Virus record (IMG/VR): IMGVR_UViG_3300030450_000258
Span: 30,292 to 55,427 of that record
Direction: 5' to 3' (one strand)
DNA length: 25,136 bases
DNA from: a virus
The translations under genes were made by a program, and so were the position numbers. This document shows, one piece after another, positions 3,934 through 17,461 of this stretch. The notes beneath the pieces are model-generated. The model saw only the letters and a program-made list of their open reading frames with translations, had not been told where the DNA came from and ran no database searches. Each line of letters begins with the position of its first letter. Within the stretch, counting starts at the first letter, position 1.

Positions 3934-5487
3934 ATGGCAGATAATCTAGCCTCGTTTAAGATATTCTGTCAGGGTGGGCTAAACACTAGTAGAGATGTTT
4001 TATCCCAAGGTGAAACTGCACCTGGCTCTGCTATAAAGCTTACAAACTATGAGCCATCTGTTACTGGTGGTTATCGTAAGATAAACGGATTTAGTAATGA
4101 CTATGGGACAGTAACAGGTACAGGAAATGTTCTTGGGGTCTGCGTAGCTAATGGTATTAATGATGGTATACTAGCTTGCCGTACTCCCTCTAGTGGTAAT
4201 AATTATTTACATCATTGGAGTACTTCTGGCTCATCTTGGACTGCTGTATCTACTTCAGGTTCTCCTACAATGTCGGGAGTTACTAAAGTTAGATTTACAA
4301 AGTTTAACTTTGGTAGCCCTAAAGTTATTTTAACTGATGGTGTAAACCCTGCTGCTACATATGATGGATCAACATATACTCAAATAACACACGCCAACGC
4401 TCCTGATGACCCCAAAGTATCTGCTGTATTTCAAAACCATATGTTTCTAGCAGCAGACCCTAATGAAGATACTAACTTATATTTTAGTGCTCCTTTAGCA
4501 GAAACAGATTTTAGCGCAGCTAATGGTTCCGGTGTAATAAATGTAGGCTTTCCTATAGTAGCCATAAAGACGTTTCGTGATGCTTTGTATATTTTTGGCA
4601 GTAACAACATTCGTAAGCTTGTTGGTAATAATATTTCTAATTTCGTATTAGAATCTGTTACAGATAATCTTGGGTGTTTAGCTACAGACAGTGTTATAGA
4701 GATAGGTGGTGACTTATTATTCTTATCTCAGGATGGTCTACGCCCAGTTTCAGGCACAGACAAAATTGGCGATGTAAATCTAGAGACTGTATCAAAAGAC
4801 ATTCAGTCAGTATTTACAGATGTTGTTTTTGATATTGATTTAGATGGTTTAAATGCTGTTGTTATTAGAGGTAAAACTCAGTTCAGATACTTCTTTGCTG
4901 CTGCAGACACTCAAGGTGTTATAGGTGGATTTAGACAAACACCTAATGGTTTACAGTTTGAATATGGGCAATTATTAGGTATCACAGCTACCTGTGCAGA
5001 CAGTGGTTACATAGGACAAAACGAATTTGTATTACATGGAGATAGTACAGGTAAAGTTTATAGACAAGAAAAAGGTAACAGCTTTGGAGGAAGCGATATA
5101 TTTAGTGCTTTCCAAACTCCTTACTTGTATATGCAAGACCCAGAGCAACGTAAAATATTTTATACTATAGCAACTTATTTACGCTCTGAAGGCGATAATG
5201 AAATATTAATGTCAGCAGTGTATGATTACGAAGATGTAAATGTATTAAACCCAAATGACTTTACAATAAGTAATACGAATGCTGCAGCTTATTATAATGA
5301 GGCTGCGTATGCTGCTGCTGATGCTACTAGTGGTGCTGTTTACGATGGTAGTCCTGCGCCTATACGAAGAACAAATGTGTCAGGATCAGGAAAATCAATT
5401 TCAATAAGATATGTTACAAATGACACAAAACCTTCACACAGTATACAAGGTTTCGTAATTACATTTGGGGTAGGAGATAGGTTATAA
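3934..5487 (+). CDS. Tail nozzle / packaged-DNA stabilisation protein (tail tubular protein B-like)
   Basis: This 517-residue, beta-rich protein probably forms the tube below the adaptor and closes the DNA channel, as T7 gp12 and P22 gp10 do. The N-terminal region (residues about 12-53), with 'CQGGLNTSRDVLSQGETAPG' and then 'LTNYEPSVTGGYRKINGF', is a strong family signature. The middle carries repeating beta segments such as 'VILTDGVNPAATYDG', 'FQNHMFLAA' and 'IKTFRDALYIFG', as in propeller-like nozzle domains. It starts two bases after the adaptor stop and its own stop is separated by a single base from the fibre gene ATG, so the three tail genes are likely translated from one message. Confidence 0.82.
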   Translation: MADNLASFKIFCQGGLNTSRDVLSQGETAPGSAIKLTNYEPSVTGGYRKINGFSNDYGTVTGTGNVLGVCVANGINDGILACRTPSSGNNYLHHWSTSGSSWTAVSTSGSPTMSGVTKVRFTKFNFGSPKVILTDGVNPAATYDGSTYTQITHANAPDDPKVSAVFQNHMFLAADPNEDTNLYFSAPLAETDFSAANGSGVINVGFPIVAIKTFRDALYIFGSNNIRKLVGNNISNFVLESVTDNLGCLATDSVIEIGGDLLFLSQDGLRPVSGTDKIGDVNLETVSKDIQSVFTDVVFDIDLDGLNAVVIRGKTQFRYFFAAADTQGVIGGFRQTPNGLQFEYGQLLGITATCADSGYIGQNEFVLHGDSTGKVYRQEKGNSFGGSDIFSAFQTPYLYMQDPEQRKIFYTIATYLRSEGDNEILMSAVYDYEDVNVLNPNDFTISNTNAAAYYNEAAYAAADATSGAVYDGSPAPIRRTNVSGSGKSISIRYVTNDTKPSHSIQGFVITFGVGDRL

Positions 5488-5488
5488 A

Positions 5489-7987
5489 ATGGCAGGTTAT
5501 TCAAGACAATCCTCATCAACAATACAACCTAATGAGGTTATTAAAGCTGCACCAGTAAATGCAGAGTATAACGCAATACGAGATGCGTTTGCTTTGTCAG
5601 GTGGGCATAAACATGACGGTAGTTCAACTGAAGGTGCATACGTACCTCTCATAGCTGACACTGATGCTTTAAATAAAATAGCAGTAGATACTAGCAACAA
5701 TAGGCATGGTGTGTTTGTTGAAGTTTCTTCCTCAGCAGTAGAGCAGCTTAGGTTTCAAGACGGTGTAATTGTACCTGTAACAGATAATGATATAGACTTG
5801 GGCACAAGTTCTGTAGAGTTTAAAGATTTATATCTAGATGGTACAGCTACGGTAGATACACTTCAAGTGGATGAGAACGCTACAGTAACAGGTAATCTTT
5901 CTGTAAATGGAAACACTACACTTGGTAATGCAGCTACAGATACAGTTACAATAACTGCTGATGTTGCTTCTGCTCTTACTCCTTCTGCTGATGATACACA
6001 TGACTTGGGTGCTACAGGTTCTGAGTGGCGTAATTTATACATAGACGGTACAGCTAATATAGATACCCTTGCTGTTGATGCAAATGGTACGGTGGCAGGT
6101 ACTCTTGTAGTGACAGGAGCTACAACACTAAATGGTGGTCTTGTCATGGATACAGATAAGTTTACCGTTGCGGATACAAGTGGTAACACTTCTATTGGGG
6201 GTACTCTTACAGTTGCAGGTGCAACTACGTTAGCTGCTACATCTTTTGGTGACGCAAACATTACCAATGTAGGAGATATAGCGTTAGACAGTATTAGTGC
6301 AGACGGTAGCACAATTACTATTACTGGTAACACTACATTTGCTGATGGCTCTTATGATTTTAACATAGCCTCTCACGATGGAACAAATGGACTTGCTCTT
6401 GGTGGTACAGTAGTAACTGCTTCAGCAGCAGAACTAAACATCATGGATGGAGTAACTGCTACTACTTCTGAACTTAACATTATGGATGGCGTTACATCCA
6501 CGACTGCAGAGTTAAACATACTTGATGGGGTAACTTCAACAGCTGCAGAATTAAATATACTAGACGGTGTTACTGCCACTGCTGCAGAGCTTAATACACT
6601 AGATGGCGTCACAGCAGTCGTGGGGGAACTTAACGCACTAGACTTAGGAAGTACTGCAGTTGGTACTGCTATTGCATCTAAGGCTGTAGTGTTAGACTCT
6701 AATAAAGATTACACAGGTATTCGTAACTTTACAATAACAGGCAACTTGACTGTAGGTGGTACTACCACAGTTGTAGATACTGTTACTATGAATGCACAGA
6801 ATGCTGTGGTATTTGAGGGTGCTACTGCTGATGACTACGAAACTACACTTACTATTGTAGATCCTACAGCAGATCGTACAATTAACCTCCCTAACCAAAG
6901 TGGTACTATTCCTGTACTAGCTGCAGTAAGTACAACTCAAATTAGTGCTACACCTGAAGAGTTAAACATCATGGATGGTGACACTTCTGCTACATCTACT
7001 ACACTTGCAGATGCAGATAGAGTTGTGGTTAATGATGCAGGGACTATGAAGCAGGTAGCCCTTACTGATTTTGAAACATATATGGAGACATCTTTAGATA
7101 CTCTCAGTAATGTAACTACAGTAGGTGCATTGAATAGTGGCAGCATCTCAAGTGGATTTGGTGCTATAAACAATGGTTCAAGTGCTATTACCACAACAGG
7201 CACTGTAACTTATGGTAGCTTGTCAGACGGAACTATAACTATTACAGGCTTTGTTGATGAAGATGATATGTCATCTAATAGTGCAACATTAGTTCCTACA
7301 CAACAATCAGTAGAAGCTCGTATCCAAGCTGTAAATGCGGCTGCTAATAATGTAACAGGTCTTAACGCCACAGGTGCAGAGCTTAATACTGTAGCAGATG
7401 TATCAGCAATTAGTCCTGACACTTCTACAGCAGTAGCAAACAATGATGCAATACTTATGTACGATAATTCAGCTACTGGATTAAAGTATTTTGATGTAGA
7501 TTTACTTGATACGTACTATGCACAAACAACAAAAACATTAACAAACAAAACAATTACAAGCCCTACAGTAAGCGGTTTATATTTAAGTGACGCAGGTATT
7601 ACTATAGAAGGGTCTAGTGCAAACGATTACGAAACTGTTCTAACAGTTACTAACCCTACTGCAGATAGAACTATTACATTTCCAGATGCTACAGGTACAG
7701 TTGCCTTACTAGCAAGCCCTACTTTTACAGGAACGTTAACTTCACCTACTATAAACGCATCAACTGCTTTACAAATAGGTGGAGTAGCAGTAACATCTAC
7801 AGCAGCAGAGCTTAATATTCTTGATGGTGTAACATCTACAGCAGCAGAGCTTAATATTCTTGACGGAGTTACAGCGACAGCCACTGAATTAAATTATGTA
7901 GATGGTGTAACCTCTGCAGTACAAACCCAATTAGACGCTAAAGCAACAACTGGTAAAGCAATTGCTATGGCAATGGTATTTGGATAA
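5489..7987 (+). CDS. Long tail fibre with 13-residue repeats
   Basis: This 832-residue fibrous protein probably attaches to the tail and projects toward the host surface. Residues 1-60 (around 'IQPNEVIKAAPVNAEYNAIRDAF' read in parts, then GGHKHDGSS) look like the virion-attachment end. The shaft is low-complexity Thr/Ala/Asp/Gly sequence with imperfect motifs such as 'LGTSSVEFKDLYLDGTATVD', repeated as 'LGATGSEWRNLYIDGTANID'. Blocks of 13-residue 'AELNILDGVTSTA' repeats lie at residues about 315-392 and 774-812. Two 'DYETTLTIVDPTADRTINLP'-type motifs (about 452 and 715) are known from cyanophage and other marine phage fibres. The C-terminus is short and ends in 'AIAMAMVFG'. Start ATG 5489 follows GGAG at 5473-5476. 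The receptor is unknown. Confidence 0.8.
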   Translation: MAGYSRQSSSTIQPNEVIKAAPVNAEYNAIRDAFALSGGHKHDGSSTEGAYVPLIADTDALNKIAVDTSNNRHGVFVEVSSSAVEQLRFQDGVIVPVTDNDIDLGTSSVEFKDLYLDGTATVDTLQVDENATVTGNLSVNGNTTLGNAATDTVTITADVASALTPSADDTHDLGATGSEWRNLYIDGTANIDTLAVDANGTVAGTLVVTGATTLNGGLVMDTDKFTVADTSGNTSIGGTLTVAGATTLAATSFGDANITNVGDIALDSISADGSTITITGNTTFADGSYDFNIASHDGTNGLALGGTVVTASAAELNIMDGVTATTSELNIMDGVTSTTAELNILDGVTSTAAELNILDGVTATAAELNTLDGVTAVVGELNALDLGSTAVGTAIASKAVVLDSNKDYTGIRNFTITGNLTVGGTTTVVDTVTMNAQNAVVFEGATADDYETTLTIVDPTADRTINLPNQSGTIPVLAAVSTTQISATPEELNIMDGDTSATSTTLADADRVVVNDAGTMKQVALTDFETYMETSLDTLSNVTTVGALNSGSISSGFGAINNGSSAITTTGTVTYGSLSDGTITITGFVDEDDMSSNSATLVPTQQSVEARIQAVNAAANNVTGLNATGAELNTVADVSAISPDTSTAVANNDAILMYDNSATGLKYFDVDLLDTYYAQTTKTLTNKTITSPTVSGLYLSDAGITIEGSSANDYETVLTVTNPTADRTITFPDATGTVALLASPTFTGTLTSPTINASTALQIGGVAVTSTAAELNILDGVTSTAAELNILDGVTATATELNYVDGVTSAVQTQLDAKATTGKAIAMAMVFG
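6431..6664 (+). repeat. Six tandem 39-bp (13-codon) repeats in the tail fibre
   Basis: The codons for Glu-Leu-Asn recur at exact 39-base steps from 6431 to 6626, giving six in-frame 13-residue units of the type ELN-I-[ML]-DGVT-x(4). The DNA copies differ at many third positions, so the array is old, while the protein pattern is well conserved except in the last unit (ELNALDLGS). Confidence 0.85.
7790..7924 (+). repeat. C-terminal 39-bp repeats, two copies nearly identical in DNA
   Basis: A 35-base stretch at 7790-7824 is repeated without change at 7829-7863, a 39-base period. A third, diverged copy follows (ELNYVDGVT, from 7886). Unlike the earlier array, two of these copies are almost identical in DNA, which suggests recent duplication or conversion. 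Confidence 0.85.
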
Positions 7988-8002: not shown

Positions 8003-8365
8003 ATGGCAAATCCAAATGTAGTAGCAGTAAGCAGTATTTATGCTAATACAGCAGTAGATGCTGATGTTGCCGCAAGTGCGGTAAGTTTACTAACGGCTGC
8101 TTCAAATAAGTTACTTAAGATTAATTCGTTAGTTATAGCTAACATAGATGGTACTAACGCTGCTGATATATCTGTGTGGATTACACGATCAAGTGCAGAC
8201 TATTACATAGCTAAAAGCATTACAGTAGCAGCAGGTAGTTCACTGCTTCCCATAGACAAGAATATGGGGCTATACCTAGTAGAAGGTGACATACTCAAGA
8301 TACAAGCTAGTGCAGCAGGGGATTTATCTGCTGTTTGTTCATATGAAGAGATTGATGACGCTTAA
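8003..8365 (+). CDS. Small beta-rich virion-associated protein, function unknown
   Basis: This 120-residue protein follows the fibre behind a clear ribosome site (AAGGAG at 7990-7995). It has an Ala/Val/Ser-rich N-terminus and a pattern of alternating hydrophobic strands ('LLKINSLVIANIDG', 'DISVWITRS', 'YYIAKSITVAAGSSLLPID', 'LYLVEGDILKIQA', 'LSAVCSYEEI'), which looks like a compact beta-sandwich. Similar small proteins sit near tail fibres in marine phages, so a fibre accessory or small structural role is likely. Its stop TAA (8363-8365) overlaps the next ATG (TAATG), so it is probably translationally coupled to the first propeller protein. Confidence 0.6.
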   Translation: MANPNVVAVSSIYANTAVDADVAASAVSLLTAASNKLLKINSLVIANIDGTNAADISVWITRSSADYYIAKSITVAAGSSLLPIDKNMGLYLVEGDILKIQASAAGDLSAVCSYEEIDDA

Positions 8366-9843
8366 TGAAATCTTTCGGTAACATTGCTAAAGATGGTCAG
8401 GTCAGGGCGGTAGCTTCTGGTGCTTTGACTAATGGTAAACCTGTTTGTGTAAATACAGATGGGACTGTTAGTGAAGTTACTCAAACGACTGCAAGCTTGG
8501 GAACAGAAGGTGCTTTTAATGCATTAAATTCTGTTTATAATACTACTGTTTTTGATAGTTCTAACAATAAACATATAATTGTTTATGGTCATAGTTCTAA
8601 TATGAGATATGTAGTTGCAACTGTAGCATCAGATGGTGGTGTTACTTTTGGAACTGATGCGGTTGCTCTTTCGGGAAATCATCAAGATATTGCTTCTGCC
8701 TTTGATAGCACAAACAATAGAATTGTTGTTGCCGTTAGAAATGCTAATGACAGCAATCATGGCTATGCAATGGTCGGTTCTCTATCAGGAACTACAGTAA
8801 CTTGGGGCAGTGCTACAGAATTTAATAACAACAATAGTAATGAAATGGGTATTTCTTTTGATAGCACAGCAGAAAAAGTTGTTATTTCTTATAGAGATTA
8901 TGGTAATAGTAGTTACGGAACTGCAATAGTTGGTACGGTGTCTGGTACGTCTATTTCATTTGGAACTGCTGTTGTTTTTAACAGTGGCACTACAACAAAG
9001 ACTAGACCTTGTTATGATAGCACTAACAACAGAACAGTTATTTCTTACGGAGATGGAGAAGACGGTTCTGCCAATGGTATGGCTGTTGTTGGAACAGTAA
9101 GTGGAACAGGTATTAGCTTTGGATCAGAGGTTGAATTTGAATCAGGTGCTATAAGCGACTCTGGTTTAGCGTTTGACAGTGATACTGGTAAAGTAGTTAT
9201 TGCATATAGACAAAACCACGAAACTTCTGGCGAAACGGACTTTAAACGAGGAACCGCTGTTGTTGGTACTGTTTCTGGCACAAGTATTAGCTTTGGCACT
9301 CCTGTTGCATTTGATAATACAGGAGACTATGGAGAAAGTTCGCATGGTAATGTGATATATGATACTAATGCTAAGAAAGTTATTGTTGTATATCCACGCA
9401 CAGTCAGTGGTAGTTATTCAAATCGTGGTTATGCGTTTCCTTTAACAGTTTCTGGTACAACTGTTGTTGCAGATACACCAACGGAATTTACCGCAGGGGC
9501 AGCTACAGGTTATACTGCTATATCGTTTGACAGTAATGTAAATAAAAATCTTATAGTTTTTAAAGATAATGGTAACAGTGAGTATGGAACAGCCGTTTCT
9601 TTTACCCCACTTTCGGGCAACATCACCTCAGAGAACTTTATAGGTTTTTCAGATGGTGCATTTGCAACTACTCAAAGTGCATCAATAAACACAGCTAACA
9701 CAATAGACAGAAACCAAAGTAGCCTTACAGCAGGGCAAACTTACTTTGTGCAAGCAGACGGCACACTTGGAACATCAGCAGGAAGTCCCTCCGTAACAGC
9801 AGGGACTGCTATATCAGCTACGGAATTAATAGTGAAAGGTTAA
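8365..9843 (+). CDS. Repeat fibre/receptor-binding protein 1, predicted seven-bladed beta-propeller
   Basis: This 492-residue protein has three parts. An N-terminal cap (about 1-40) holds 'AVASGALTNGKPVCVNTDGT'. Seven repeats of about 50-60 residues follow (about 52-417), each with a 'FDSxxNKVVIxYRDxGNSxYG' strand pair and usually a 'VGTVSGTSISFG' strand. The F/YD motif falls at residues 63, 113, 165, 217, 270, 332 and 388. The C-terminal cap (about 418-492) runs from 'ITSENFIGFSDGA' to 'LTAGQTYFVQADGTLG' and ends 'AGTAISATELIVKG'. Seven units of this length are what a seven-bladed beta-propeller needs. I infer a receptor-binding or head/tail fibre role from gene position and from similar repeats in marine phage fibres. 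No enzyme motif is visible, and there is no signal peptide. Start overlaps the previous stop (TAATG). Confidence 0.7.
   Translation: MKSFGNIAKDGQVRAVASGALTNGKPVCVNTDGTVSEVTQTTASLGTEGAFNALNSVYNTTVFDSSNNKHIIVYGHSSNMRYVVATVASDGGVTFGTDAVALSGNHQDIASAFDSTNNRIVVAVRNANDSNHGYAMVGSLSGTTVTWGSATEFNNNNSNEMGISFDSTAEKVVISYRDYGNSSYGTAIVGTVSGTSISFGTAVVFNSGTTTKTRPCYDSTNNRTVISYGDGEDGSANGMAVVGTVSGTGISFGSEVEFESGAISDSGLAFDSDTGKVVIAYRQNHETSGETDFKRGTAVVGTVSGTSISFGTPVAFDNTGDYGESSHGNVIYDTNAKKVIVVYPRTVSGSYSNRGYAFPLTVSGTTVVADTPTEFTAGAATGYTAISFDSNVNKNLIVFKDNGNSEYGTAVSFTPLSGNITSENFIGFSDGAFATTQSASINTANTIDRNQSSLTAGQTYFVQADGTLGTSAGSPSVTAGTAISATELIVKG
8518..9615 (+). repeat. Seven propeller-blade repeats, first copy
   Basis: Seven in-frame repeats, mostly of 150-170 bases, lie in the first propeller gene. 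Repeats 3 to 5 keep the VSGT-x-ISFG core best, while repeats 1, 6 and 7 are the most diverged. The boundaries are approximate and set by eye from the protein pattern. Confidence 0.7.
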
Positions 9844-9846
9844 AGA

Positions 9847-10110
9847 ATGAAAACTATCGTAGAGACATCAACTAAGTTATGTAAATATCTACTTGCAGAT
9901 GACGTAAAAATCACAGCAACGTCAGATAATATCACAGTGGGAGATCCTGCTCAGTTTATTATCGCTGATCTTAATAGTGGCAATACGACTATTACTGAGA
10001 ACGTGACCAACGCACCAAGCGACTGGACAGGCAACAAGTATAAGTTAGATGGCACAACGTGGTCAGCTAATCCTGCTTGGGTAGATCCTTCAGAGGATGA
10101 CGGAGAGTAA
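9847..10110 (+). CDS. Small conserved protein between the propeller genes, function unknown
   Basis: This 87-residue acidic protein begins three bases after the previous stop and ends five bases before the next start. Its N-terminus (MKTIVETSTKLCKYLLADDV), the 'ITVGDPAQFIIADLN' strand and the 'APSDWTGNKYKLDGTTW' segment resemble a small protein I know beside tail-fibre genes in marine phages, but I know no function for it. It is probably a small beta-barrel. Location suggests a fibre-associated structural protein or a fibre assembly factor. Confidence 0.6.
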   Translation: MKTIVETSTKLCKYLLADDVKITATSDNITVGDPAQFIIADLNSGNTTITENVTNAPSDWTGNKYKLDGTTWSANPAWVDPSEDDGE

Positions 10111-10115
10111 CAATA

Positions 10116-11585
10116 ATGCTACGTGTCATAGGCAACGATCAGAATTTACCAAGACAGGAACACGCTGTAGCTAGTGGTACGTTGCCTAATGGTAAACCTG
10201 TTGTTGTAAATACTAATGGAACTGTAAGTGTTGTCTCTGGTAACGATGATGCAGCAGGTACACCTACACAGATTTCAACTGATTCTAACCTAATGCAAAT
10301 GCAAGCAATTTATGATCCCGATTCAGGTAAAGTTGTTATTGCCTATCATAGAGATACATCATCGTATTACGGTGCAGCAGTTGTTGGAACTGTTAGTGGC
10401 ACAGATATAAGTTTTGGTAGCATAACAAAATTCCAAGCCGACAACTCAAATGGTATGGATGACTTGACTATGGCATACGATACAAACGAAGATAAAGTTT
10501 TACTCGTTTATAAAGACAAAGACAACTCTAGTTATGGTACTGCAATTGTAGGAACTGTGTCTGGAACCTCTATAAGTTTTGGCACTGCTACTGTTTGGCA
10601 AAGCAGTTCTGTAAGTAGAACCCAGATAGGATTTGATAGCAACTCTAATAAATTTTTAGTTGCTTATATGAGAAGTTTGCCAAGAGCTAGAGTGCTTACT
10701 GTAAGTGGCACATCTGTTTCTGCAGGTAGTGAAACAAATATAAGAACAGATACTGATGGAAATATACTTAGACCTGATATGGCTTTTTCAACTTCAGCTA
10801 ACAAGTTTGTTGTAATATATAAAGATAATGATCAATCGGGCAAGGGTCAAGTTGTAGTTTCAACGATTTCAGGCACAAGTGTGTCTCATGGTACGGTGGC
10901 TGACATAGGCAGTGTTGCAGTAGATTCAATATTACGAATTGATTATGACGCTACCTTAGATAAGTTTTTAATAGTTTATATTGATAGTGATGACTCTAGT
11001 AAAGGTAAAGCAGTTGTTGGAACCCTAAGTGGTACAAGTGTTAGTTTTGGAAGTATTGCGACATTTAACAATGCAGCTACGTTAGCCCCTAGTGTTACAT
11101 CTGATGGCAGTGGTAATTTTATAGTTAGTTTTACTGATGATGCCAATTCTGATCGTAAAACTTTTGTATCTGCAACTGTATCTGGTACATCTGTTAGTTT
11201 TGGTAGTGAGGTTGTCATAGAGGATGTTGATGCCGATGACGCATCATCAACGCCCTTATCTGAAATGGCATATGATAGTGCTAATAATAAATTTGTTATA
11301 CCTTATGGTGATTTTACTAATAATAAACTTAAAGCAGCAGTCTTACAATTAGCTTCAACCAACCTTACTTCAGAAAACTACATAGGCATAGCTCGTAGCG
11401 GTGCGGCTTCTGGTGCAGGGGCTATCATAGATACTCAAGGTGCAATAGCCGACAACCTCTCAGGGCTAACGGCAGGTCAAAGCTACTACGTTCAGACTAA
11501 TGGCACACTAGGTACAACGGCTGCTGATCCTAGCGTCTTTGCAGGAACGGCTGTGTCAGCAACAGAATTAATAGTGAAAGGGTAA
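10116..11585 (+). CDS. Repeat fibre/receptor-binding protein 2, predicted seven-bladed beta-propeller
   Basis: This 489-residue paralogue of the 8365-9843 product has the same plan: an N-terminal cap with 'AVASGTLPNGKPVVVNTNGT' (about 17-36), seven repeats, and a C-terminal cap from 'NLTSENYIGIA' (about 406) through 'LTAGQSYYVQTNGTLG' to 'AGTAVSATELIVKG'. The blade motif falls at residues 66, 121, 173, 224, 277, 329 and 386. The third blade is short, and the sixth has lost the aromatic residue before the Asp (TSDGSGN). The blades differ much more from those of protein 1 than the caps do, so exposed loops may differ in ligand. The first ATG of the frame is used, six bases after the previous stop. 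The ribosome site is weak (GGAG within GACGGAGAG). Confidence 0.7.
   Translation: MLRVIGNDQNLPRQEHAVASGTLPNGKPVVVNTNGTVSVVSGNDDAAGTPTQISTDSNLMQMQAIYDPDSGKVVIAYHRDTSSYYGAAVVGTVSGTDISFGSITKFQADNSNGMDDLTMAYDTNEDKVLLVYKDKDNSSYGTAIVGTVSGTSISFGTATVWQSSSVSRTQIGFDSNSNKFLVAYMRSLPRARVLTVSGTSVSAGSETNIRTDTDGNILRPDMAFSTSANKFVVIYKDNDQSGKGQVVVSTISGTSVSHGTVADIGSVAVDSILRIDYDATLDKFLIVYIDSDDSSKGKAVVGTLSGTSVSFGSIATFNNAATLAPSVTSDGSGNFIVSFTDDANSDRKTFVSATVSGTSVSFGSEVVIEDVDADDASSTPLSEMAYDSANNKFVIPYGDFTNNKLKAAVLQLASTNLTSENYIGIARSGAASGAGAIIDTQGAIADNLSGLTAGQSYYVQTNGTLGTTAADPSVFAGTAVSATELIVKG
10287..11330 (+). repeat. Seven propeller-blade repeats, second copy
   Basis: Seven in-frame repeats of about 130-165 bases encode the predicted propeller of the second protein. 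Several blades carry 'VSGTSVSFG' where proteins 1 and 3 usually have 'VSGTSISFG'. Confidence 0.68.
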
Positions 11586-11587
11586 CT

Positions 11588-14188
11588 ATGCTAAAACGTA
11601 TAGGTACTGAAGAAAGTGGTGAGTTTAAAGCGGTAGCCAGTGGCACGTTGTCCAGTGGTAAGCCAGTTGTTGTCAACTCTGATGGGACTGTGAGTGTTGT
11701 AAGTACGACTACATTAACTGAAGCTGCAGGTAGTATTGTTCAATATGAGGCAGGAGGAACGCATGACCAAGAGATCGTATACGATAGTGCTAATGACAGA
11801 GTTGTTATATTTTACAGAGATGCAGGAAACAGCGATTTTGGAACTGCTGTTGTAGGAACTGTTAGTGGTGACTCAATTTCTTTTGGCACTCCTGTTGTAT
11901 TTGAAAGTGCCAATTCAGATAACATAGCGGCTGTTTTTGATAGCTCAAATAATAAAGTGGTTGTAGGTTATAGGGATACTGGAAATAGTAATGCAGGAAC
12001 TGCTATTGTAGGAACGGTTTCTGGTACTTCTATAAGCTTTGGCACGGCTGTAGTTTTTGAAAGTGGAAACACTAATAATAGTATGGGTATGTCTTTTGAC
12101 ACCTCTGCTAATAAAGTTGTTATTGCTTTTAGAGATAATGGTGACAGCAATTATGGTAAGGCTATAGTTGGTACAGTAAGTGGTACAAGTATTAGTTTTG
12201 GCTCTCCTGCCACATTTAGTAGTGCAAGCACTAGTTATGTAGACATAGCCTATGATGTTGCAAATAATAAGCACGTAATAGGATATGTTTTGACAGCAGG
12301 AAATGCAAAAGTTGCAACTGTTTCTGGGACTTCTATAAGTTTTGGTTCTGCAACGGAGTTTGAAAGTGGAGCGACAATACTTACTAAAGTAGTTAATGAT
12401 CCTAATATAAATAGAGTTCTTATATTCTATGCTGATGGTGGTGATAATGACAAAGGCAAAGCTACTATAGGTTCAGTGTCAGGAACAAGTATTTCCTTTA
12501 CAGGACAGTCTACTTTTTATAGTGCTGCACAAGTAACACGGATAGGTGCTTCTTTTAATACTAGCATAAATAAAGTCACAATTTCCACTAAAGATAATGG
12601 TGGTGCTTTGAATATGTTTACGAGTTCTGTAACAACTTCAGCCTTTACACATGGATCAGCTTTCGCAGTTGATGCTAGTATTACTACTGGTGAGGTTAAT
12701 AATGTTCATGTATCAACAGCCAATAGAACTGTTATAGCTTATTCGGATGCAGGTGATTCAGACAAAGGTAAGTCTCTAGTATACACAGGTGGAGGAGATG
12801 TAAAAAACCTCACATCAGAAAACTACATTGGTATGTCACCAGGAGATGTAACATACGATATTGCCACTCAAGCTGTAGGCACATCAGTAACTATGAACTC
12901 AGGCTCTACAACTGGTTTTGCCGCAGCTTTTGACTCTAGCACAGGTAAAGTTGTAATAGCTTTTAGCGATGGTGCTGATTCAAATAAAGGTAAAGCTATA
13001 GTTGGGACAGTAGACGCTGCAAATAATTCTATAAGCTTTGGTTCTGAAGTAACTTTTCAAGATAGTGAAATTACTGGCGATGAAATGGATTGCGTTTTTG
13101 ATAGCAATGCAAACAAGGTTGTTATTTTCTACACAGACACAAACAATCCAAGCACAGACGATAGAACTGGTACAGCTATTGTAGGGACTGTAAGTGGTAC
13201 GTCTATATCTTTTGGCACTAAAGCAGCTTTTGAGTCAGGCAAAACAAAATACATTGTATCAACTTTTGACAGCAATTCAAATAAAGTTGTTGTTGCTTAC
13301 GAAGATGATGATAATTCTGATTATGGCACTGCTGCCGTTGGGACAATATCAGGCACAGACATTAGTTTTGGAACACCTGTTGTTTTTGATTCTCAAGCCA
13401 CAGAATTTCAGGGCATAAGTTTTGATAGCACTGCCAATAAAGTTGTTATTGCTTATAGAGACTTTGGTACGTCAATAGAAGGTAGAGCCGTTGTTGGTAC
13501 TGTATCAGGTACTTCTATTAGCTTTGGTTCCACTGTATCGTTTACCTCTGCAAGCGCAGATTTTTTCAGTCCTGTTTACGACAGTGCTAACAATAAAACA
13601 GTTATTTTTTATAGAGATGCTAATAATAGCGATCATGGTACAGCGAAGGTAGGAACAGTAAGCGGAACTTCTATTAGCTTCGGTAGTGCGGTTGTTTTTA
13701 ACGCAGGAAACTCTAGATTCATACGTGCAATTTATGACTCTAATGCAGGAAAAATATTGGTTCTTTTTAACGATACTGCTAACAGCAATAGACCAACTAT
13801 TATTATTGGCACAGTTAGCGGAACAAGCATTTCGTTTGGCTCAGAAACAGTGGTTATGGATGTTGAAGGAGCCACTATAAATCCTGCTGTAGCATTTGAT
13901 AGCACTAATAATAAGGTTGTTCTTTCATATATAGATACTACTGGAAGTGACAATGGCATGGCACAAGTAGTTCAACTCGCTTATGATAACACAACTAGAG
14001 CAAATATTGCTGATGGCGGCAACGCATCAGTAGATATTATAGGCTCTGTAGTTGATAATCAAAATTCTCTCACCACAGGACAACAATACTTTGTACAGAA
14101 TGACGGAACGATAAGCACAACAGCGGATAGCCCAAGTGTACTGGCAGGGACTGCTATCTCTGCAACAGAATTATTAGTAAAGACATAG
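11588..14188 (+). CDS. Double-length repeat fibre protein 3, predicted tandem seven-bladed propellers (7+7)
   Basis: This 866-residue protein has one N-terminal cap (about 15-38, with 'AVASGTLSSGKPVVVNSDGT') and one complete C-terminal cap (about 815-866, ending 'AGTAISATELLVKT'), but fourteen repeats. The blade motif falls at residues 65, 117, 170, 222, 270, 323 and 375, then at 448, 504, 560, 612, 664, 716 and 770. A remnant of the C-terminal cap, 'NLTSENYIGMSPGD' (407-420), sits between the two sets. No second N-terminal cap is present there. The second set is more regular than the first. The message reads through without a frameshift. It starts two bases after the preceding stop, behind AAAGGG within the end of that gene. 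A receptor-binding role is inferred. Confidence 0.7.
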   Translation: MLKRIGTEESGEFKAVASGTLSSGKPVVVNSDGTVSVVSTTTLTEAAGSIVQYEAGGTHDQEIVYDSANDRVVIFYRDAGNSDFGTAVVGTVSGDSISFGTPVVFESANSDNIAAVFDSSNNKVVVGYRDTGNSNAGTAIVGTVSGTSISFGTAVVFESGNTNNSMGMSFDTSANKVVIAFRDNGDSNYGKAIVGTVSGTSISFGSPATFSSASTSYVDIAYDVANNKHVIGYVLTAGNAKVATVSGTSISFGSATEFESGATILTKVVNDPNINRVLIFYADGGDNDKGKATIGSVSGTSISFTGQSTFYSAAQVTRIGASFNTSINKVTISTKDNGGALNMFTSSVTTSAFTHGSAFAVDASITTGEVNNVHVSTANRTVIAYSDAGDSDKGKSLVYTGGGDVKNLTSENYIGMSPGDVTYDIATQAVGTSVTMNSGSTTGFAAAFDSSTGKVVIAFSDGADSNKGKAIVGTVDAANNSISFGSEVTFQDSEITGDEMDCVFDSNANKVVIFYTDTNNPSTDDRTGTAIVGTVSGTSISFGTKAAFESGKTKYIVSTFDSNSNKVVVAYEDDDNSDYGTAAVGTISGTDISFGTPVVFDSQATEFQGISFDSTANKVVIAYRDFGTSIEGRAVVGTVSGTSISFGSTVSFTSASADFFSPVYDSANNKTVIFYRDANNSDHGTAKVGTVSGTSISFGSAVVFNAGNSRFIRAIYDSNAGKILVLFNDTANSNRPTIIIGTVSGTSISFGSETVVMDVEGATINPAVAFDSTNNKVVLSYIDTTGSDNGMAQVVQLAYDNTTRANIADGGNASVDIIGSVVDNQNSLTTGQQYFVQNDGTISTTADSPSVLAGTAISATELLVKT
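11753..12805 (+). repeat. First set of seven blades in protein 3
   Basis: Seven in-frame repeats of about 145-160 bases. Blades 1-3 are close to consensus, while blades 4, 6 and 7 are degenerate: blade 6 has lost the VSGT core and blade 7 runs into the cap remnant at 12806. Confidence 0.68.
12905..14011 (+). repeat. Second set of seven blades in protein 3
   Basis: Seven in-frame repeats of about 155-165 bases. Blades 2-6 carry nearly identical 'VGT[VI]SGT[SD]ISFG' cores, making this the most uniform set in the window. Blade 2 has a short insertion (NNPSTDDRTG). Confidence 0.7.
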
Positions 14189-14204: not shown

Positions 14205-14222
14205 ATGTTTAACTATGAGTGA
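14205..14222 (+). promoter_or_regulatory. Possible 5-codon leader ORF overlapping the next start
   Basis: ATG 14205 opens a five-codon frame (MFNYE) ending in TGA 14220-14222, which overlaps the ATG of the next gene at 14215. The only ribosome site, AAGGA (14195-14199), is at normal distance from 14205 but about fifteen bases from 14215. Ribosomes may therefore load on the leader and restart. This is inference. Confidence 0.3.
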
Positions 14223-14469
14223 CATCAAACTTACTCCAGAAGAACTAGAAGAGATGCTAGACAATGCAGCTAGTCGTGGTGCTAAAGAGGCACTGCGTTC
14301 TATTGGGCTACTTGATGATGATGCACAAAAAGATATATTAGAAATGCGTAACTTAATAGAAGCGTGGAGAGATACACGTAGGTCTATATGGTCTACAGTA
14401 GTAAAGTTAGCTACCGTTGGAGTCCTGACATTTATTGCAGGTGCGGTATGGATGACAATGGGTAAATAA
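14215..14469 (+). CDS. Small single-span membrane protein, possible holin or ejection accessory
   Basis: This 84-residue protein has an acidic helical N-terminal part (residues 1-55: 'LTPEELEEMLDNAASRGAKEAL', then an 'AWRDTRRSIW' basic-aromatic segment). One membrane segment follows at about 61-81 (VVKLATVGVLTFIAGAVWMTM, given in part), with a short GK tail outside. The 'RGAKEALRSIGL' and 'MRNLIEAWRDTRRS' motifs resemble a widespread family of small phage membrane proteins often listed as putative holins. It lies just upstream of the ejection-protein block, next to the fibre genes, and could equally act in DNA entry. ATG 14215 is the only reasonable start; an in-frame stop lies at 14194-14196. 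Confidence 0.6.
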   Translation: MSDIKLTPEELEEMLDNAASRGAKEALRSIGLLDDDAQKDILEMRNLIEAWRDTRRSIWSTVVKLATVGVLTFIAGAVWMTMGK

Positions 14470-14479
14470 GGAATAGGAT

Positions 14480-17461
14480 ATGGCAGCAGTAGATAATTTA
14501 GCGTATATTGACCCTGAAGGTGTGTACGGAAACAATGTATCTGTAGTGGATTCATTCACTGCTCCTGATGGAACGGTGTATGAAGCTAGAGCAAGCCATA
14601 TGGGTAATGGTGTTGTTAAAATAACCACTAATGAAGATGGTACAAAATCAACAGAGGAATTACTTTTTCATAAAACTAGAGGCATAGATAAAAAGAGTAG
14701 AGGTAAAAAGAAATCTATTTCGGCTAGAATAAATAAAAACATATCTAAAGTTAATCAAGAATTTGCAGGTTTTAAACAAGCTGCAGAAGCTGCTGCAAGT
14801 ACTACAGAAGCTATAGGGTATACTGATGCTGATGTAACATCTGGTGGAGGAGGACTTTTTCAAAGAGACAAGGCTTCTTTCGTAGACTTAACTGATGCTT
14901 CAGGAAATAGTATAGCGACTATTTCAAGTACACAAGGTAAAACATCTGAAGAGATACGTAGAGTTAAAGCTCTAGCTGATGAACTTATAAACATAAATAA
15001 GTCTGCTATAAATGTTTTAGATGTTGACAATATTCCAATAGATGATATTACAGAAGGTAGTGATGGCACTGACGGTAGTGACGGTGCAGGTACAACAGGC
15101 TTAACAGCAGGTGACTACATGCAGACTGTAGACCCTGCAGTAGCAGGTGGCGCTTTTGATGCTGTAACACCTCCAACAACTGTGCAACAAGTACCTGCAG
15201 GTGGTGTGCCTATTGTTAATCCTGATGAATCTCAAACAGTAATGCAGCAAGTAGCACCAGTTACGTATCAGAATGTAGTACCAACAGCAGGATCAGGTCC
15301 AGGCACAGTTGCAACAACTACACAAACAGGTGGCACGTCTGCAGTACCATCTCAAGTATCTTACAAAACACAATACGCAGGTACACAAGGTGCGGTTGCA
15401 CCTACCCTTGTAACGACTCAGCCAGGAACAGGTGCAGCTTATCCTGCAGTATTTCAAGGCTATCAGACTGTGCCATATGGCAATGAGTTGGGTCAACAAA
15501 TAATGATCACTGAATTTAATGGTCAACCTACTACGTATGTACCGCCAGGATTTTCTAAGAAAGAAGCTACTACAGGTGCTGCAGAAGGTGGGTTGATGGA
15601 AACTATGTCTCTAGAAGGTAAAGACCGTATATATCGTAAAATGGGTTACAATGGTCATAAGACACGAGAGGGTCACGCTAAGTTTGAAGAAGCTAACCCT
15701 GCTGCAAAAGCTAAAGGCTTGGCTATAGGTGGGTACATACAGAAGTTTAATCAAGGTGGTGCAGTAAGAGCTTTTGACGAAGGTGGTGACACTACCGTAC
15801 CTGCAAACTTTACATCAGCAGACTTAGCTGAGATGCAGAAGAGGGCTGTACAACAAACGATGCAACCCATGCAAGCTACTACAGCTATGATGCAACCTAC
15901 AGCAGGTGAGTTTATTCCAGTAGATGCAGGGATGACTGCACCGATAGCTCCCTTCGCTGAAGCTGCTACAGTAGGTAATGTACAACAAGCTGTGTTACCA
16001 ACTGCCCCTGCTGCAAATCTTGCAGGTGTTACTAGTGTTGCACCTCAAGTAGCTACAGAAGCTGCAAAGCTAAAAGCTGCTACAAGTACACCTACACAAC
16101 AGATTATTGCACAACAGCAAGTAGGTACATCCATTACAGGTATGGAAGCTGCTCAAGGTAACGCTATAAAAGTAGATAGTCCTACAGCTAGAAAGTTAGA
16201 AACAGATCCTGTATCAGGTGAAAGTGAAATAATATCTGGTGTCGCTAATGCACAAACTGCTGCTGCATTCACTGAAGCAGTAAACGCTGCAGAAGCTACA
16301 CCAACTAAACAGGCAACAGTTGCAGGTCAGCTAGAAACATTGATGGCTGACTTTGAGGGTGGTGAGACACCTGCTTGGGCTGCAGGATCTATGCGTACCG
16401 CAATGGCTACACTCTCTGCTCGTGGTCTTGGTGCGTCTAGTCTTGCAGGTCAAGCTGTCATACAAGCTGCGATGGAAGCAGCATTACCTATCGCTCAGAT
16501 GGATGCACAAGTTGTAGCACAGTTTGAGATGACTAACCTATCTAACAGACAGCAAAGACAAATGCTCATAGCACAGCAACGTGCTACATTCATGGGCATG
16601 GAATTTGATCAAGCATTCCAAGCTCGTGTAGCTAATTCTGCACGTATAGGTGACATTGCTAATATGAAATTCACGGCTGAACAACAGATAGCTTTAGAAG
16701 ACTCTCGTGCAGCAAACACTATGGAATTGTCTAACCTATCTAACTCACAGGCAATAATAATGGCTGAGGCTGCTGCGTTGTCACAACTAGACATGGCTAA
16801 CCTATCAAACAGACAACAGGCTGCTGTACAGAATGCATCTAACTTTTTACAGATGGACATGGCTAACCTGTCTAATGAACAACAGACTGCTGTATTTAAA
16901 TCACAACAAAACATACAGGCTCTGTTTACAGACCAAGCTGCTACTAATGCTGCTGCACAGTTTAACGCTACGAGTGAAAACCAGACTGATCAGTTCTTTG
17001 CTAACCTATCTAACCAAACTTCACAGTTTAATGCTACACAACAGAATGCTATGGATCAGTTCAACGTCAATAGTGTCAATGCATTGCGTGAGTTTAACTC
17101 AGAGCTACAACAACAGCGTGACATCTTTAATGCACAGAACGGACTAGTGATAGCACAGTCTAATGCAGCATGGAGACAAAGCATAGCTACCGTAAACACA
17201 GCTACACAGAACCAAAGCAACATGGACTTTGCTAAAACTATCAATGCCCTTACTGCATCTAACATGGATCAGATATGGCAAAGAGAGCGAGACATTATGA
17301 GTTTTGCATTCGCTGCTTCTGAGAGTGCTGCAGACAGAGCCAACAGTATTGCAGTAGCAAAACTTACAGCAGATGCACAGGCTGAGGTAGCAGATAATGT
17401 AGGTAAAGGTAAACTAGCAGCTATAGCAGTAGATGCTGTAATTAAGAAGTGGTTAGTCTAA
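14480..17461 (+). CDS. Large internal virion protein with helical NLSN repeats
   Basis: This 993-residue protein is probably carried in the virion and ejected into the host with the DNA, or lines the internal core. Residues 1-200 are a mixed region with a basic helix (IDKKSRGKKKSIS). Residues about 200-480 are low-complexity Gly/Thr/Pro/Gln/Val sequence with no clear fold, and hold the GGYIQKFNQGG motif. The C-terminal half (about 610-993) is Ala/Gln-rich helix with 'NLSN' at about 685, 752, 773, 795 and 841, then QFNA-type repeats and WRQ/WQRE motifs. I recognise this C-terminal part from internal proteins of marine podoviruses. There is no tape-measure-like length of coiled coil for a long tail. 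ATG 14480 follows AAGGAATAGG. Its stop overlaps the next start. Confidence 0.72.
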   Translation: MAAVDNLAYIDPEGVYGNNVSVVDSFTAPDGTVYEARASHMGNGVVKITTNEDGTKSTEELLFHKTRGIDKKSRGKKKSISARINKNISKVNQEFAGFKQAAEAAASTTEAIGYTDADVTSGGGGLFQRDKASFVDLTDASGNSIATISSTQGKTSEEIRRVKALADELININKSAINVLDVDNIPIDDITEGSDGTDGSDGAGTTGLTAGDYMQTVDPAVAGGAFDAVTPPTTVQQVPAGGVPIVNPDESQTVMQQVAPVTYQNVVPTAGSGPGTVATTTQTGGTSAVPSQVSYKTQYAGTQGAVAPTLVTTQPGTGAAYPAVFQGYQTVPYGNELGQQIMITEFNGQPTTYVPPGFSKKEATTGAAEGGLMETMSLEGKDRIYRKMGYNGHKTREGHAKFEEANPAAKAKGLAIGGYIQKFNQGGAVRAFDEGGDTTVPANFTSADLAEMQKRAVQQTMQPMQATTAMMQPTAGEFIPVDAGMTAPIAPFAEAATVGNVQQAVLPTAPAANLAGVTSVAPQVATEAAKLKAATSTPTQQIIAQQQVGTSITGMEAAQGNAIKVDSPTARKLETDPVSGESEIISGVANAQTAAAFTEAVNAAEATPTKQATVAGQLETLMADFEGGETPAWAAGSMRTAMATLSARGLGASSLAGQAVIQAAMEAALPIAQMDAQVVAQFEMTNLSNRQQRQMLIAQQRATFMGMEFDQAFQARVANSARIGDIANMKFTAEQQIALEDSRAANTMELSNLSNSQAIIMAEAAALSQLDMANLSNRQQAAVQNASNFLQMDMANLSNEQQTAVFKSQQNIQALFTDQAATNAAAQFNATSENQTDQFFANLSNQTSQFNATQQNAMDQFNVNSVNALREFNSELQQQRDIFNAQNGLVIAQSNAAWRQSIATVNTATQNQSNMDFAKTINALTASNMDQIWQRERDIMSFAFAASESAADRANSIAVAKLTADAQAEVADNVGKGKLAAIAVDAVIKKWLV

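Follow-up and report, generated by a model that had tools for sequence, protein, structure and literature searches.

Three repeat genes in the window

The window (the whole stretch of DNA that was analysed, 25,136 nucleotides) is the stretch 30292-55427 of a virus record 55,427 bases long. It comes from an uncultured marine phage that, by DNA and protein matches, belongs with the HMO-2011-type roseophage group. By DNA it matches CRP-2, CRP-603 and CRP-1, and its presumed nozzle protein shares 74-77% identity with those of CRP-1, CRP-9, CRP-2 and CRP-13. The window contains three related genes for presumably disc-shaped proteins; we call the genes A, B and C, and each occupies one slot of a module. 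Upstream of them lie a coat gene (phrog_267), an SU10-type adaptor gene, a nozzle candidate and a gene for an 832-residue fibre shaft. The genes and the parts assigned to the three proteins are as follows.

3934-5487: nozzle candidate, a separate conserved gene
5489-7987, + strand: p832, tail-fibre shaft protein of 832 aa with repeated ..AELNILDGVT.., the 'repeat fibre' of the initial annotation
8003-8365, + strand: p120, conserved gene (120 aa) immediately 5' of slot A, phrog_1276
8365-9843, + strand: A, the slot A gene, 492 aa, one predicted seven-bladed propeller within a split base domain
8365-8499, + strand: A base domain, N-terminal piece (header ..AVASGALTNGKPVCVNTDGTVS..; base HMM 1-47)
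8500-9618, + strand: A propeller, seven predicted blades, the last of which takes its outer strand from the N-terminal side
9619-9840, + strand: A base domain, C-terminal piece (TSENFIG...GTAISATELIVKG; base HMM 34-116)
9847-10110, + strand: p87, small gene (87 aa) between slots A and B, its place kept in relatives
10116-11585, + strand: B, the slot B gene, 489 aa, one predicted seven-bladed propeller within a split base domain
10236-11351, + strand: B propeller cassette, with near-identical DNA in slot A of contig L076
11588-14188, + strand: C, the slot C gene, 866 aa, two predicted seven-bladed propellers at two sites of one base domain
11720-12799, + strand: C first propeller, predicted blades 1-7
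12800-12868, + strand: C base domain, middle piece (NLTSENYIGMSPGD) separating both propellers
12869-13987, + strand: C second propeller, predicted blades 8-14, with 88-100% identical DNA in slot A of contig L005
13988-14185, + strand: C base domain, C-terminal piece (base HMM)
14215-14469, + strand: p84, gene of 84 aa closing the module, phrog_10540

The role of p87 is possibly assembly-related. Downstream of the module, positions 14480-17461 encode a 993-aa protein with repeated NLSNRQQ-like stretches and without a PHROG match.

A profile HMM of the repeat unit found exactly 7 units in A, 7 in B and 14 in C, each of about 52 residues and spaced 48-62 aa apart. The 14 units of C fall into 7 + 7, parted by a step of 74 aa. 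These are the numbers, the grouping and very nearly the unit length (about 50 residues) that the initial annotation had given. It had obtained them by counting the motif 'FDSxxNKVVI', which as printed is only a consensus: a tight regular expression matched 5 times in A, 3 times in B and 9 times in C. Because the strict motif is degenerate and such an expression under-counts, the unit count rests on the profile. Single units in the three proteins scored 28-81 bits, and with scores of this size and equal numbers in relatives the 7/7/14 pattern is not due to chance. When the whole proteins were scanned against Pfam and PHROG, the only matches were weak or repeat-driven (Cyclophil_like2 inside single repeats) and were judged spurious, and C used as a sequence query against the PDB matched no chain at E <= 1.

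Seven-unit arrays and their predicted closure

Two scans of IMG/VR yielded 95 loci with relatives of these genes, and the complete proteins encoded there hold 189 arrays. A seven-unit span was found in 177 of the 189. The 12 exceptions were inspected singly. In six of them the extra match is an N-terminal half-unit; in the other six a short last unit was missed or the array matches weakly, and the proteins are of the usual length. In L041 and L094, the calls of five units come from weakly matching arrays in proteins of usual length and are no proof of another blade number. The initial annotation had named other blade numbers in a profile search as the result that would speak against seven; the apparent fives, sixes and eights turned out to be mostly miscalls of end units, or else weakly matching arrays. 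Lengths of complete proteins are quantised, at 460-534 and 845-885 aa, and the few of intermediate length (703-755 aa) either combine seven units with a different insert or are shaft-bearing proteins.

The ends of the arrays were examined at the level of single strands. The last unit ends after its third strand, so that the outer (fourth) strand is missing. Directly ahead of the first unit is a sequence resembling this D strand, with a median score of 5.2 versus -9.2 for shuffled sequence; of 158 arrays, 98% scored above their own shuffled mean here. The stretch that follows the last unit scored -10.5, near the shuffled level of -10.9. By sequence, the end blade is thus built from both termini, as is expected of a closed ring. 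Complementary ends of this kind point to the Velcro closure described for beta-propellers (PMC3797127), and an open solenoid would have no reason to possess them.

Closure in space rests on AlphaFold2 models and on Foldseek matches to closed propellers. The model of A had a pLDDT of 90.5 and a pTM of 0.86, and its best target-normalised TM-scores among the matches listed were 0.74 (PLL2) and 0.71 (PHL), both seven-bladed lectins. For C, both arrays were mostly above pLDDT 90, the base was low and the pTM was 0.50; the model fixes neither the base domain nor the mutual placement of the two propellers. The top Foldseek match of C was a protein of two seven-bladed propellers, at a low TM-score that is probably due to a different relative placement of the propellers. 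A four-stranded blade pattern is seen in the models of A and C. One closed seven-bladed beta-propeller in A, one in B and two in C is a well-supported prediction. The single-chain modelling proposed in the initial annotation, carried out for A and C, gave models that match seven-bladed (A) and tandem 7+7 (C) propellers, and together the fixed count, the Velcro ends, the models of A and of the C arrays and the Foldseek matches argue for its proposal of closed rings over a solenoid of free length.

It is scarcely credible that the repeats instead form an open solenoid in which seven was inherited by coincidence. All arrays are related and their counts are not independent, but many have diverged to about 40-50% identity without any change in unit number, and both the Velcro signature at the array ends and the matches of the predicted structures to closed propellers speak against an open fold. 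The unrelated five-unit inserts described below are likewise fixed in number. The variable unit number expected of an open beta-solenoid was not seen in the related arrays.

Base domain, slots and the exchange of propellers

The sequences N-terminal to the first blade and C-terminal to the last make up one domain of ~116 residues that is common to A, B, C and their relatives, a cement-like barrel split by the propellers into two pieces in A and B and three in C. Header and footer were joined for profile searches only. Among 14 joined members, 10 matched Phage_cement_2, 7 matched Phage_cement and 6 matched the XM1 gp53 minor capsid protein, all weakly. The best E value to Phage_cement_2 (PF09956) among the 14 was 2.8e-4; the joined base of B scored 19.8 bits, below the cut-off of 24; and the match of the base domain to the head decoration family phrog_122 had an E value of 0.054. 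The likeness to Phage_cement_2 extends over nearly the whole profile, whereas the base domain differs in its score below the cut-off, in being interrupted by propellers and in not adjoining the coat gene. Searched against the PDB, a base-domain profile gave nothing beyond a weak match to an adhesin (E 0.18), which was set aside.

The second insertion point in the barrel is TSENYIGMSKGGAVADT, which is whole in relatives with a one-propeller slot C and in C itself is interrupted by the second propeller. A third site in the base domain holds a different propeller-like repeat, always of five units, in L008/L032, L054 and L064/L065. One seven-bladed propeller and a five-unit insert occur together in L008 (4904-7120), in the 755-aa ORFs of L064 and L065 and in the 751-aa ORF of L054. 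Repeats of the five-unit type are also present in 5 copies in ICBM2 gp51 and in 15 copies, arranged as three sets of five, in CRP-2 gp51 (L096 11441-15109), CRP-9 gp42 (L108 8045-11770) and CRP-13 gp43 (L109 8054-11695), which are annotated as hypothetical proteins and may be 5+5+5 propellers. Slot A of L005 (6920-9526) has a shortened N-terminal base piece (..IIRAAVSEGINVTQAVG..), likewise found in L040, L048 and L050, and judging from its sequence this piece is another way to carry the first propeller. A fourth related gene, in L038 (703-aa ORF) and L070 (715-aa ORF), has fibre-shaft sequence (LDGVTATAAELN) fused to a base and a divergent propeller.

In the relatives, the conserved gene order is again p832, p120, A, p87, B, C, p84. 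Slot A carries one propeller in 30 cases and two in 12; for slot B the numbers are 40 and 5, with 3 of other make-up, and for slot C 15 and 26, with 1 other. As a slot can carry either one propeller or two, the 7/7/14 set of the window is one combination beside 7/7/7, 14/7/14, 14/14/14 and others. The initial annotation knew of no description of a 7/7/7+7 set. Such a set is indeed present here, and within our partial coverage of the literature we found no paper describing a three-gene set of this kind, but it is one slot combination of several and no unique design. Close relatives can differ in their slots. The core genes of L013 are 92-97% identical in DNA to those of the window, yet its slot A has two propellers, not one, and in L013 and L033 taken together core genes 89-97% identical accompany different slot contents. 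The small gene p87 (9847-10110) is often better conserved than the surrounding propellers, for example with 93% DNA identity to L013.

Individual propellers could be traced to other slots. The B propeller of the window and slot A of L076 are 95-100% identical in DNA over most of about 10236-11350; outside the propeller the identity falls to 38-73%, and the flanks in L076 match slot A of the window. The synonymous difference between B and L076 is 0.00-0.13 in propeller regions versus 0.50 in the base. The second propeller of C is the first in slot A of L005 (88-100% DNA identity over 12870-13950), the first propeller of C is the second one there, and the propeller of A is found in slot B of L005. 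Among 59 between-contig propeller pairs of 70-99.5% identity, a count of pairs and not of independent events, 29 lie in different slots, 9 differ in position or number and 21 are in the same place. These alignments show that whole propellers move between slots, with breakpoints at the propeller edges.

The conserved stretches of base domain beside each propeller could provide the homology for such exchange. Homologous recombination would then swap whole propellers among the three genes and among phages, and the set of heads would be reassorted with no ring broken. A tyrosine integrase gene lies elsewhere in the record (G000 11169-11660, minus strand, outside the window), and such an integrase is a feature of HMO-2011-type phages; it was considered as the agent of the swaps, and nothing connects the two. 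A diversity-generating retroelement was also considered as a source of variation and rejected, because no match to the reverse transcriptase family PF00078 was found in the 55,427-base record, which is possibly incomplete.

We tentatively entertain, as a reading somewhat short of probable, a combinatorial repertoire in which each of three barrel 'sockets', having as many as three insertion sites, would take whole propellers, seven-bladed or of the unrelated five-unit kind. Recombination in the base domains would shuffle these between sockets and phages, and specificity would evolve by the swapping of modules and not by mutated or replaced fibre tips. The trading of whole propellers between three adjacent genes suggests a modular change of what the phage would stick to. 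A module that exchanges propellers only as complete units would offer a clear and testable case of specificity evolving via intact folds, and experiments are feasible since the cultured phages CRP-2, CRP-9 and CRP-13 bear propeller-like proteins of related design.

Variation is also found within the propellers. Among close relatives, amino-acid differences amount to 24-34% in the B-C and D-A loops; the A-B and C-D loops differ by 9-14% and the strands by 13%. In standard propeller topology, the B-C and D-A loops share one face. Sequence variation is thus concentrated in the loops of one face, with the opposite face conserved. The dN/dS ratios were 0.41-0.55 in the variable loops and 0.25-0.36 elsewhere; being below 1, the former give no direct sign of positive selection in these loops. 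Their variability is compatible with a binding face and is no proof of selection for change.

Probable recognition function and related proteins

A, B and C probably serve an HMO-2011-type short-tailed phage as interchangeable receptor-binding heads, with propellers inserted in a cement-like barrel. The term 'fibre protein' used in the initial annotation is not supported, as they have no shaft and their propellers are seated on the barrel. In such a head, one or two closed propellers would sit in loops of the small conserved barrel, the barrel would fix the head to the virion, with the tail-fibre system as the most likely site, and the loops of the variable face (D-A and B-C) would probably touch glycans or proteins of the host surface. 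We infer tail attachment, receptor binding and the type of ligand from sequence and models; receptor binding on the tail is suggested by the place of the genes after the fibre-shaft gene, the shaft fusions in L038 and L070, the variability and the exchange.

Because the base domain resembles cement families, the main rival is a position on the capsid, where A-C would be decorations (head fibres) with the barrel on the capsid and the propellers pointing outward for loose attachment to host or particles. The weak matches of the base to Phage_cement_2, Phage_cement, XM1 gp53 and phrog_122 and the lack of a fibre shaft in A-C agree with this, and the cement families, which are the best Pfam matches, are equally compatible with a head location. 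The genes, however, follow the fibre-shaft gene and do not adjoin the coat gene, and in L038 and L070 shaft sequence precedes base and propeller. Lentibacter phage ICBM2 gp49 and AG-345-O18 have extra N-terminal sequence ahead of the base, and the equivalent interval in CRP-1, CRP-9 and CRP-13 contains genes whose annotation is tail fibre or tail structural protein. With these observations we consider a capsid position unlikely. An enzymatic role, such as that of sialidase-type depolymerases cutting host surface sugars, is less probable again: sialidases are among the Foldseek matches of A and endosialidases exist among phage propellers (PMC4901313), but the best TM-scores go to seven-bladed binding proteins and not to sialidases, no catalytic Pfam family was matched, and the conserved positions look structural, being common to all blades. 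Phage SU10, whose adaptor family is shared with the window, has a seven-bladed propeller, likewise with Velcro closure, in its nozzle protein (PMC9509320). That A-C are similarly parts of a tail tube is very improbable, given that the nozzle candidate of the window is a conserved gene apart from them, that the propellers are the most variable and most exchanged part of the module and that their number per gene differs between near relatives.

As receptor-binding heads, A-C would be a variant of already known propeller-bearing phage recognition proteins, and relatives exist in public protein sets. In Staphylococcus phage phi11, beta-propellers serve host recognition (Gp45; PMC4901313). The likeness to A-C lies in a propeller-based recognition protein, a role that is presumed for A-C. 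Gp45 has five blades per propeller and a trimeric coiled-coil stem and tower, whereas each chain of A-C carries one or two propellers of seven blades in a stemless, cement-like barrel. A receptor-binding protein of the phi11 type was rejected on the seven units and on the N-terminal piece, which is base domain without a stem. The Photorhabdus PLL/PHL lectins have seven four-stranded blades with sugar sites between blades (PMC6943638). They gave the best TM-scores for the A model among the matches listed and share its seven four-stranded blades, but the structural match has about 10% identity, a sequence match is lacking, and PLL lectins sit in no other domain, unlike the propellers of A-C, which are inserted in the base domain. 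Membership of the PLL family by sequence was rejected on this low identity for A and on the PDB search with C.

Matches in BFVD had E values of 6e-20 to 9e-42 and included A0A516MFK3, A0A516MG07 and A0A646QVT1. The last, an entry of 511 aa, is presumably CRP-2 gp52, with which we equate it by length. A split base domain with a propeller, as in A-C, is found in CRP-2 gp52, ICBM2 gp49, A0A516MFK3 and A0A516MG07, for which the papers found hold no functional description; the blades of CRP-2 gp52 and ICBM2 gp49 are divergent from those of A-C. In a search of bacterial and archaeal genomes, relatives were found on three MAG contigs (L112, L113 and L114) binned as Maricaulis and Euryarchaeota, which are possibly phage contigs caught in binning.
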